Assembly (NCBI RefSeq): GCF_001021165.1
Contig: NZ_AZAY01000011.1
Location: forward strand, 1 to 64,000
Reading direction: 5' to 3'
Length of the DNA stretch: 64,000 nt
From: Marinitoga sp. 1197
GTDB taxonomy: Bacteria > Thermotogota > Thermotogae > Petrotogales > Petrotogaceae
The position numbers and the translations under genes were made by a program. The first letter of the stretch is position 1. Each line of letters opens with the position of its first letter. Positions 43,709-46,546 of this stretch are shown here, piece after piece. The notes below the pieces were generated by a model. It was not told the DNA's origin and did not search any database. It saw nothing but the letters and a program-made list of their open reading frames with translations.

Positions 43709-43783
43709 TCCGGCGTAGCTCAATGGTAGAGCGGGTGGCTGTTAACCACTAGGCTGGGGGTTCGAATCCCTCCGCCGGAGCCA
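43709..43783 (+). tRNA. tRNA-Asn (anticodon GTT)
   Basis: A 75-base cloverleaf with encoded CCA. The acceptor arms TCCGGCG and CGCCGGA pair perfectly. The D arm is AGCTCAATGGTAGAGC-like, the anticodon stem GTGG/CCAC encloses CTGTTAA (anticodon GTT), and the T loop is TTCGAAT. The discriminator is G. It has its own promoter and a terminator shortly downstream. Confidence 0.97.
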
Positions 43784-43843: not shown

Positions 43844-43969
43844 ATATAATTTCAAAATCACAACATGAATAACTAATAAAAGCTATATATTTTCTGGATA
43901 TTTTAATAAACTATAATAAAGTTTACTTTTTTATTGTGTAAATGGTAAAATAAAAAAGAACAAAAAGAG

Positions 43970-44010
43970 GAAAATAAAAAATGGGCTATGGTTGTGATAA
44001 CCATAGCCCA
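43970..44010 (-). terminator. Terminator of the small minus-strand gene
   Basis: Perfect 12-bp stem (43982-43993 with 43999-44010, GGGCTATGG/CCATAGCCC). Read on the minus strand it is followed by TTTTTTATTTT, a classic intrinsic terminator 16 bases after the stop of the 29-codon gene. The loop region contains GGTTATCACA, which is complementary to a segment inside that gene. Confidence 0.88.
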
Positions 44011-44026
44011 AATAATTACTTTATCA

Positions 44027-44116
44027 TCAATAATAATTGATGTGAGCAAGGTTATCACAAATAGGCACACTTATCCCACTAACAAGATTTAATGAAACTA
44101 ATCTTCTAATAAACAT
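44027..44116 (-). CDS. Small protein of 29 residues, unknown function
   Basis: An intact 29-codon gene with the strong ribosome site GAGGAGG seven bases before its ATG. The product begins MFIRRLVSLNLVSG, contains one Cys and ends HINYY. It is basic at the N-terminus and mildly hydrophobic in the middle, with no clear signal peptide. It has its own terminator, so it seems to be a monocistronic transcript of roughly 180 bases. The sequence TGTGATAACCT in codons 20-23 can pair over 11 bases with the ribosome-site/start region (44116-44126), and alternatively with the terminator loop region (43992-44002). I recognise no family. It could be a signalling peptide, a leader peptide or part of a dual-function RNA. 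Confidence 0.7.
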   Translation of the reverse strand: MFIRRLVSLNLVSGISVPICDNLAHINYY

Positions 44117-44159
44117 GTGATAACCTCCTCTCGAATTTTAATGATTTTATACAATTTTT

Positions 44160-44168
44160 ATAATAACA
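44160..44168 (-). promoter_or_regulatory. Possible extended -10 promoter for the small gene
   Basis: On the minus strand TGTTATTAT could be an extended -10 box 44 bases before the ATG at 44116; no good -35 is seen. Otherwise 44169-44316 is AT-rich with nothing recognisable. Confidence 0.35.
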
Positions 44169-44316: not shown

Positions 44317-44643
44317 TTAATCTTCTATTTTCTTTAATTTTACAGCAGTTCCATAAGCCAACATTTCTGCAGCGCCTTGCATAACAGCAGAGCTTGAAAA
44401 TCTCATACCAATAATAGCGTCAGCACCAAGTTTTTCTGCTTCATCGATCATTCTTTCATATGCAATATTCCTTGCTTCTGTGAGCATTTCTGTATAACCT
44501 TTCAATTCACCACCAGCCAATGTTTTAAATGCAGCAGCAATATCTCTTCCTAAATGTTTTGAATGAACAGTATTACCTATAACTATACCTAAAACTTCTT
44601 TGAACTCATATCCGGGAACATAACCAACAGTTGTTACTATCAT
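44317..44643 (-). CDS. YbjQ/UPF0145 family protein
   Basis: Protein of 108 residues with the YbjQ pattern: a VGYVPGYEF-like start, the Gly/Thr-rich GIVIGNTVHSKHLGRDI, LKGYTEMLTEARNIAYERM, and LGADAIIGMRFSSS. The family forms pentameric rings and has been suggested to bind metals, but its role is not settled. GGGAGGTG precedes the start. It lies 13 bp after the ABC permease gene and is probably the last gene of the gntR operon. Confidence 0.9.
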   Translation of the reverse strand: MIVTTVGYVPGYEFKEVLGIVIGNTVHSKHLGRDIAAAFKTLAGGELKGYTEMLTEARNIAYERMIDEAEKLGADAIIGMRFSSSAVMQGAAEMLAYGTAVKLKKIED

Positions 44644-44656
44644 AAAAACACCTCCC

Positions 44657-45418
44657 TCAGATTTCTTTGTTTTTAAAAGTGTAATATGCTAAAGAAGCGA
44701 TAATTTCTCCTAAAACAAAAAGGTATATACTATAAGTCCAATCAATTTTTCCGTATTTTAAAATATTATTACCAAGAATATAGATATAAGTATTTAGAAA
44801 GTTTAAAGGTTTTATGAATCCCAATGCTGTTGTAATAGCTAATAAACCTATAGATGAAAGAATGGGTTTAACCTGATCATTAAAGATTATAGAAAAAAAT
44901 ACAGTTACTTCGTACCAAAATAATACACCGAACAAACCATGAATCATATATTTATATGCTATAATTGAATTAAAATTTTTGTTAAATAAATTAGAATATA
45001 CAATGGGCAATACATTTCCAAAAATAACAAGTAAAAATAATAAAATCAAACCACTATATACTTTTGATAAAAATATATAGTCTCTTGACTTTCTTACCAT
45101 CAAATATTCCATTGTTCCATTTTCAAATTCTCGTGAAAATAATGGAAATGCTGCTATAATAGCAAAAATCGGTAACATTTGTCCAAAGTTTTTTCCAAAC
45201 CATTGAGTATAAATATAATAATTCCAATCATTTAAATTTTCAATCATATTTGCTATACCAAATTTTTCTGCATATGTTTTTATAACTGTTATATTCTCTT
45301 CAATCATATTTACATATATTTTTTGAAATGGAGCTATAGAAAAAAATAAGATTATTGTTATTATAAATAAGATTAAAAAACGTACTCTCATTTCATAAAA
45401 CTCTTTTTTCATTACCAT
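44657..45418 (-). CDS. ABC-2 type transporter permease
   Basis: Integral membrane protein of 253 residues with six predicted helices: about 12-28, then a long external loop, and helices near 75-92, 105-130, 150-170, 180-198 and 225-242. The cytoplasmic phrase FSREFENGTMEYLMVRKSR between helices is typical of ABC-2 permeases. It overlaps the ATPase gene by 7 bp. Under control of a YtrA-like GntR regulator, such systems often respond to cell-envelope stress; the substrate is unknown. Confidence 0.85.
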   Translation of the reverse strand: MVMKKEFYEMRVRFLILFIITIILFFSIAPFQKIYVNMIEENITVIKTYAEKFGIANMIENLNDWNYYIYTQWFGKNFGQMLPIFAIIAAFPLFSREFENGTMEYLMVRKSRDYIFLSKVYSGLILLFLLVIFGNVLPIVYSNLFNKNFNSIIAYKYMIHGLFGVLFWYEVTVFFSIIFNDQVKPILSSIGLLAITTALGFIKPLNFLNTYIYILGNNILKYGKIDWTYSIYLFVLGEIIASLAYYTFKNKEI

Positions 45419-46182
45419 TCCCCCTTTACAATAGCTTCGAAGATATCGTCTATAGTTATATGTTCTCCTTTGTTGTTTTTAATAATCCATACATTTTCTT
45501 TTTCTAAACTTTTCCATAAATACCCTTTTGTTTTTTCTTCTTTAGGAAGTGATATGGCAGTATATTTATTTTTTATATTATCAAGATAGTCAATTTCTAA
45601 TATTTTTCCTTTAGACATAATAGCAATTCTATCTGCAATTTTTTCGACTTCAGAAAGGATGTGACTGGTATATAATACACTTTTTCCATTATATGTAAAT
45701 TCTCTGATTAAATCTAAAACTTTATTTCTCATTAAAGGATCAAGTCCCCATGTTGGTTCATCTAAAATATATAAATCAGCATTTTGTGAAAAAGTTATTA
45801 TAATATATATTTGTGTAAGCATTCCATGAGATAAATTTGAAATCTTAATTTTTTTATCTATATTAAAATCACTTAATAATTCATATGCTTTTTTTATGGA
45901 AAAATCTTTCGTCAAAAAATTATTAATCTCAATCATTTTTTCAACTGTTAAACTTTTATATAATTGTTTTTTTTCTGGCAAATAAGCAATTTTTCCATTA
46001 ATTTGGATTTGACCTTTATTCTGTTTTCTTAGACCTAATATACATTTTAAAGTTGTAGTTTTTCCAGCACCATTTGGACCTAATAATCCAAATATTTCTC
46101 CACGATTTATTTCAAAAGAAATATTGTTTACTGCAATTAAATTTCCATATTTTTTTGTTAAACCTTCAATCTTTAAAATCAT
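45412..46182 (-). CDS. ABC transporter ATP-binding protein
   Basis: ATPase subunit of 256 residues. Walker A is GPNGAGKT, the signature is LSHGM (variant of LSGGQ), Walker B is YILDEPTWGLDP, and the switch His lies in VLYTSHILSEVEKIADR. I use ATG 46182, because GGAGGTGA lies just upstream while the in-frame TTG at 46197 is inside that site. The gene starts one base after the gntR stop. The C-terminal 50 residues, after DYLDNIKNKY, form a small domain of unknown role. Confidence 0.9.
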   Translation of the reverse strand: MILKIEGLTKKYGNLIAVNNISFEINRGEIFGLLGPNGAGKTTTLKCILGLRKQNKGQIQINGKIAYLPEKKQLYKSLTVEKMIEINNFLTKDFSIKKAYELLSDFNIDKKIKISNLSHGMLTQIYIIITFSQNADLYILDEPTWGLDPLMRNKVLDLIREFTYNGKSVLYTSHILSEVEKIADRIAIMSKGKILEIDYLDNIKNKYTAISLPKEEKTKGYLWKSLEKENVWIIKNNKGEHITIDDIFEAIVKGEW

Positions 46183-46183
46183 G

Positions 46184-46546
46184 TTATTCACCTCCAAATA
46201 AATCTTCTATAATTTCAAATAGATCTTCTTTTTTTATATTTGCACTTTTGCATGAAACAACTGCTTTTTTAAATTCTTCAATTTTATTATTAATAAAATC
46301 TTTTTCATTTATTCCTATAACAATATAACCAGAACCGCGTATAGATTTAATAACATTTTCATTTTCTAATTCTCTATAAGCTCTTGCAACGGTATTTAAA
46401 TTTACACCTAATTCTTTTGCTAATACTCTAATTGAAGGAATAAACATCTCTTTTTTTAATTCGTTATTTAGAATTTTCTCTTTTATTTTATTTTTTATTT
46501 GTTTATATACAGGAGTATGCGAATGAAAATCTATAGAAAACCACAT
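46184..46546 (-). CDS. GntR-family regulator, YtrA type
   Basis: Short GntR protein of 120 residues: winged-helix domain with PVYKQIKNKIKEKI at the start, FIPSIRVLAKELGVNLNTVARAYRELENENVI as the helix-turn-helix and wing region, and only a 45-residue C-terminal helical tail. That short tail is typical of the YtrA subfamily, which controls neighbouring ABC transporters. An inverted repeat overlaps its promoter. It is the first gene of the operon gntR-ATPase-permease-ybjQ. Confidence 0.9.
   Translation of the reverse strand: MWFSIDFHSHTPVYKQIKNKIKEKILNNELKKEMFIPSIRVLAKELGVNLNTVARAYRELENENVIKSIRGSGYIVIGINEKDFINNKIEEFKKAVVSCKSANIKKEDLFEIIEDLFGGE

Follow-up and report, generated by a model that had tools for sequence, protein, structure and literature searches.

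A 29-codon gene of Marinitoga sp. 1197, together with its ribosome-binding site and the terminator that follows it, is most likely a transcription attenuator under ribosome control. It would have led an operon for a heterodimeric ABC multidrug exporter, since deleted from this genome so that the leader is orphaned; we put the probability of this reading at roughly 0.83. The stretch analyzed (the window) comprises 64,000 nucleotides of contig NZ_AZAY01000011.1. The window genome is labelled G000 and the other Marinitoga genomes G001-G006 (G003 is M. lauensis, NZ_QHLX01000002.1). The evidence read from these sequences consists of conservation of the element, compensatory re-pairing in other genera, linkage to the exporter and loss of the exporter in G000, and ribosome-mediated attenuation appears well supported as the working mode.

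The features of the element are collected in Table 1. The coordinates of the original prediction were all correct, and its open reading frame (ORF), GAGGAGG motif and 12-bp perfect terminator were re-located as given. For the promoter that it considered possible, the results are divided: a -35/-10 scan gave no promoter match at the leader locus, but an extended -10 sequence is retained in the alignment in G003, G004 and G005, and roughly in G002. The transcript would be expected to start near 44153 on the minus strand. A Pfam search with leader peptides and mini-ORFs returned no match, and a plasmid collection searched with the DNA gave only weak matches to A+T-rich stretches. Upstream of the leader, positions 44317-46546 (minus) carry a YbjQ_1 gene preceded by a GntR regulator/ABC ATPase/ABC-2 permease operon with a YtrA-like layout.

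Table 1 Features of the leader element and its junction in the window.
Feature	Position	Strand	Description
Candidate extended -10 promoter TGTTATTAT	44160-44168	minus	based on sequence and retention in relatives
SD GAGGAGG	44124-44130	minus	5' of leader ORF
R1 (anti-antiterminator)	44116-44132	minus	SD GAGGAGG and start codon A; 44116-44127 and 44130-44132 pair with R2
Leader ORF	44027-44116	minus	29 codons, MFIRRLVSLNLVSGISVPICDNLAHINYY
R2 TGTGATAACCTTGCTCA	44043-44059	minus	codons 20-25; partner either R1 or R3
Small hairpin spanning leader stop codon	44025-44042	minus	persists within antiterminator fold
R3 TGGGCTATGGTTATCACA	43993-44010	minus	terminator 1 left arm and loop; R2 partner in antiterminator
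Terminator 1	43976-44010	minus	12-bp perfect stem, 5-nt loop, U-tract; stem-loop 44010-43982
Repeat fragment, probable IS end	43936-43980	minus	45 bp; abuts terminator 1

An internal segment of the frame had been described as complementary over 11 bases to the SD/start region, and an overlapping 11-base segment as complementary to the terminator loop region. Both were confirmed, and the pairings extend beyond 11 bases. TGTGATAACCT (44059-44049, codons 20-23) is complementary to AGGTTATCACA (44126-44116), and TTGTGATAACC is complementary to GGTTATCACAA (44002-43992). The R1:R2 helix comprises 12+3 bp, longer than first stated, and R2:R3 comprises 10 bp plus GCUCA:UGGGC at the terminator base, so that R2:R3 occupies the entire left arm of the terminator. 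Pairing of R1 with the ORF (-21.5 kcal/mol) was equalled in 5 of 5000 dinucleotide shuffles of the ORF interior, and pairing of the ORF with the left side of the terminator (R2:R3, -20.3 kcal/mol) in 4 of 5000; both pairings jointly were equalled in none of 5000. Neither pairing is due to chance. The whole leader RNA folds with z = -6.9. The antiterminator and the anti-antiterminator are mutually exclusive through their common segment R2, which lies in frame 0 of the leader in every species compared. Terminator 1 begins 16 nt beyond the leader stop codon.

A DNA search of 61 genomes detected the element in five of the six other Marinitoga genomes (73-100% identity) and no convincing match outside Marinitoga; G006 carries neither the leader nor an exporter ortholog. 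Terminator 1 is conserved in six genomes in a multiple alignment, and an SD and ATG are present at the leader ORF. Both the peptide and the pairing, on whose conservation the original prediction was to stand or fall, are conserved in relatives. G005 encodes the same peptide as the window, while G001, G002, G003 and G004 encode MLKRLFAITLSDSGNSVSCDNLAHINYY, MNKLAFVRFELLQFDSGRSVSTSCDNLAQIKVNCC, MLIKRLFALSVSDSGNSVPICDNLAHINHY and MLIKRLFALTLSDSGNSVSIFCDNLAHINYY, respectively. The Marinitoga leader ORFs differ in length by multiples of 3 only, and the spacer between stop codon and terminator varies also by single bases, a pattern that suggests translation of the leader. Repeat or mobile-element copies of the element were ruled out, as each Marinitoga genome with the element has the terminator segment at this locus alone.

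In G001-G004, the element immediately precedes an operon for a heterodimeric ABC multidrug exporter. On the same strand, 3' of the leader, a second terminator is followed by short ORFs and then by two ABC half-transporters, and an intrinsic terminator therefore stands between leader and regulated gene, as in an attenuator. Two terminators are carried by G001-G005 and only one by the window. By reading, the first half-transporter has a degenerate Walker B motif (FDD) and a normal LSGGQ, and the second a normal Walker B motif (LDE) and LSIGE. Judged by sequence, the exporter pair is an asymmetric heterodimer of the BmrC/BmrD, TM287/288 type, and among the solved bacterial structures closest to it are TM287/TM288 and B. 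subtilis YheI/YheH (= BmrC/BmrD). In G004, the SD of the next mini-ORF lies within ~15 nt of terminator 2, which leaves no space for a promoter there. The exporter genes of M. lauensis contain frame breaks, possibly through sequencing error. The description of the gene as monocistronic thus holds for G000 only, since in G001-G004 the element leads a two-gene operon, and a signalling role for the peptide itself is not supported, given that four sister genomes have the element as an exporter-operon leader.

Exporter orthologs with 53-61% identity are found in G007, G011, G013 and G016. The G013 and G016 contigs end near the leader, and the design was judged in G007 and G011, which belong to two other genera of the family. 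In both, short ORFs lie upstream of the exporter (MNLRLFSQSNSWDSFTSKYLSIKI and MIRLLKLRYYILAFAGIVSQFIANLLNPQKSWDSSASKVLIF, respectively), a terminator follows each, and the R1:R2:R3 design is kept with different sequences. R2 of these genomes aligns with that of Marinitoga codon by codon (TGG GAT AGC vs TGT GAT AAC) and pairs with its own, differing SD region and terminator. Between Marinitoga and G007, R2:R3 carries three two-sided compensatory changes (T-A to G-C, A-T to G-C and C-G to T-A). Shuffle tests gave p < 0.001 for each pairing in G007; in G011 each pairing alone was weak (p ~0.07), and jointly they were equalled in 11 of 3000 shuffles. In a scan for this anatomy across 113 ABC exporter regions of Firmicutes and Thermotogota, the only convincing case beyond Marinitoga, G007 and G011 was Tissierella sp. 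P1, although the scan is insensitive, having missed the first G007 terminator owing to an interrupted T-run. Tissierella sp. P1 has MIRMNFVLNNKENLIILTTRPGYKI, two terminators and then a homologous exporter (p 0.006 and 0.017 for the pairings; jointly 0 of 3000 shuffles). The design is compact in that the leader's ribosome-binding site would double as the anti-antiterminator, and it recurs with compensatory changes across genera and once in Clostridia.

Conserved sequence within the ORF could instead point to a ligand-binding riboswitch, with an aptamer between R1 and R2 and the ORF incidental. GATAGTGGGAATAGTGTG is well conserved in Marinitoga, and the G011 leader shares GGGAATAGTGT with several Marinitoga leaders that read it in another frame, reflecting either an RNA-level role or chance. 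However, the conserved segment is missing from G007 though the switch is kept, the strong SD belongs to the switch, and the stepwise variation in ORF length, with single-base variation confined to the spacer beyond the stop codon, argues against an incidental ORF. An Rfam search of the entire window also found no family for the leader, its sole match above the gathering score being a tRNA at 43709-43780. We consider a riboswitch highly unlikely.

G000 contains no exporter ortholog; its best ABC matches are ~36% identical, at a genome completeness of 99.98%. Over 1690 bp the window shares 97.7% identity with G005 and shows no difference in the promoter-leader stretch. Promoter, SD, ORF and terminator there are intact and match G005 exactly over ~245 bp despite 2.3% divergence of the neighbouring DNA, and the two sequences part directly after terminator 1. 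At that point the window has the 45-bp fragment where terminator 2, the mini-ORFs and the ABC exporter operon stood ancestrally; the junction shares CATTTTT. Other contigs of G000 and G005 carry this fragment at 100% identity between different flanks, which marks it as a repeat with the appearance of an IS end; the flanks vary on both sides across several contigs of these genomes. Past the repeat lie tRNA-Asn and an amidase region, which in G004 is ~167 kb away. Together with the repeat junction, this indicates that terminator 2 and the exporter disappeared through a rearrangement or deletion. The G005 exporter is split after about residue 179 by an ISL3 transposase (G005:C31:1-317 and the end of C46), so that both of the closest genomes have either a disabled exporter or none.

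The intact sequence shared with G005, and the lack of anything downstream in G000, would also fit the original proposal of a small peptide gene that stands alone, or of a small RNA with a dual function. This is very improbable: the ancestral role is that of an exporter-operon leader, the peptide is conserved beyond Marinitoga around R2 only, and the exporter loss looks recent, since G005, the nearest relative, retains the second terminator and interrupted exporter genes. The window element is thus very probably an orphan leader left beside an IS scar after loss of the exporter operon, and it presumably regulates nothing any more. A striking orphan small gene can therefore be a leader relic after loss of the regulated genes, as one sister-genome comparison shows.

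In the attenuator as proposed, a leader without a ribosome, or one whose translation is over, would pair R1 with R2, so that terminator 1 forms and the exporter is off. A ribosome stalled at or soon after the leader start would occupy R1 and leave R2 exposed, and nascent R3 would pair with R2 before the right arm of the terminator is made, allowing RNA polymerase to read through. A ribosome reaching R2 would cover it, and the terminator would form. The leader would thereby switch between folds, and stalling by ribosome-targeting drugs is the probable signal, as suggested by gene content and by the bmrB-bmrCD system. Of the original prediction, the idea that the pairings link translation and termination is supported, the pairings being mutually exclusive and conserved in relatives; the signalling peptide and native monocistrony that accompanied it are not.

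Folding calculations are consistent with this scheme, with differences among species. With the 5' part through codon 10 kept unpaired and the RNA ending at R3, R2:R3 forms in all eight leaders with 12-15 pairs. When a ribosome footprint was moved codon by codon, most Marinitoga leaders formed R2:R3 with the ribosome stalled no further than about codon 14-18; the limit was about codon 7 in G007, whose R2 begins at codon 12, and about codon 27 in G011. A footprint over R2 abolished R2:R3. These model results suggest that an early stall would give read-through and completed translation would give termination. With R1 free, R1:R2 forms in 5 of 8 cotranscriptional folds, and G001, G002 and G007 prefer R2:R3, so in these three the OFF state would depend on translation. 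In most species the full-length RNA gives terminator 1 a slight stability advantage over the antiterminator, and the switch would thus have to be kinetic, like other attenuators. No clear stalling motif is common to the leader peptides.

Instead of a drug, stalling could in principle report an amino acid or charged tRNA, since the anatomy is that of amino-acid leaders and some of these leaders end in YY or CC codons. The ends differ, however (INYY, INHY, VNCC, LSIKI and KVLIF), with no common single-residue run. The end codons also lie 3' of R2, where a stall would cover R2 or free R1 and hence lead to termination, and the controlled gene is a drug-type exporter. Amino-acid sensing thus has only a slim chance of being correct. 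A type I toxin-like mRNA, with a short peptide and its SD locked by a downstream internal segment, is extremely improbable, given that this segment pairs with the terminator too in every species, that the peptide, which has no family match, is no hydrophobic membrane helix, and that the element is linked to an exporter.

The proposed drug-responsive attenuator has counterparts among known systems. In E. coli trp-type leaders, which PMC4191407 also discusses, regions pair as 1:2, 2:3 and 3:4, with 3:4 being the terminator, and a stalled ribosome frees region 2. The Marinitoga element follows the same 1:2/2:3/3:4 scheme, but it lacks a regulatory codon run, its region 1 is the leader SD and start, and the regulated genes encode an exporter. 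It resembles bmrB-bmrCD of B. subtilis in combining a small leader ORF and terminator/antiterminator/anti-antiterminator structures with a multidrug exporter of the same heterodimeric ABC type (PMC4191407). bmrB-bmrCD is induced by ribosome-targeting drugs, and leader translation is needed for its induction by lincomycin (PMC4191407). There, however, the terminator lies inside a 53-residue GTG-start ORF, and the role of the anti-antiterminator is unclear (PMC4191407). The Marinitoga-type ORF has 24-42 codons, its terminator lies past the stop, its anti-antiterminator includes the SD and start codon of the leader itself, and in ancestral copies two stem-matched terminators and extra mini-ORFs are present. 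Strict assignment to the bmrB type fails on one feature, the terminator outside the leader coding region; the regulated genes are a heterodimeric ABC multidrug exporter in G001-G004, though not in G000, where they have been lost. In the vmlR leader of B. subtilis, a stall in the upstream ORF likewise prevents the anti-antiterminator, so that an antiterminator blocks an intrinsic terminator; this leader differs in its three-codon upstream ORF, single-stranded SD and NusG pausing, and controls an ABC-F ribosome protection protein rather than an exporter (PMC9226507). In the literature searched, there was no report of drug-sensing leader-peptide attenuation of multidrug exporters in Thermotogota, where our reading, if true, would place it.

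The second terminator of the ancestral leaders may have a part in the switch. Within each of four lineages, terminators 1 and 2 share a stem whose sequence is lineage-specific (GGGCTATGG in Marinitoga, CCATAGG in Tissierella, CCGTGAC in G011 and GGGCC in G007), so that the right arm of terminator 1 can pair with the left arm of terminator 2. Against 30000 random pairs drawn from 113 unrelated non-redundant terminators, this cross-pairing gave p values of 0.0002 (Marinitoga G004), 0.011 (G007), 0.0025 (G011) and 0.0012 (Tissierella), or 2.5e-8 when combined post hoc by Fisher's method. One stalled ribosome might then disarm two terminators in series: R2 would take the left arm of terminator 1, and the freed right arm would take the left arm of terminator 2, resulting in read-through. 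With R2:R3 imposed, the relay helix is present in the minimum-energy fold even with a complete terminator 2 (-54.3 vs -55.8 for the unconstrained two-terminator fold). Such a relay would explain the two look-alike terminators in these leaders. We regard it as tentative and somewhat doubtful, because the match was noticed after looking and because the likeness of the stems could stem from repeated duplication of terminator 1.

Between terminator 2 and the exporter, chains of short ORFs, each led by an SD, are found in G002, G004, G005, G007, G011 and G016. One of these mini-ORFs is conserved in Marinitoga (..SYYEGFxEMExIKDxLxELKR..).
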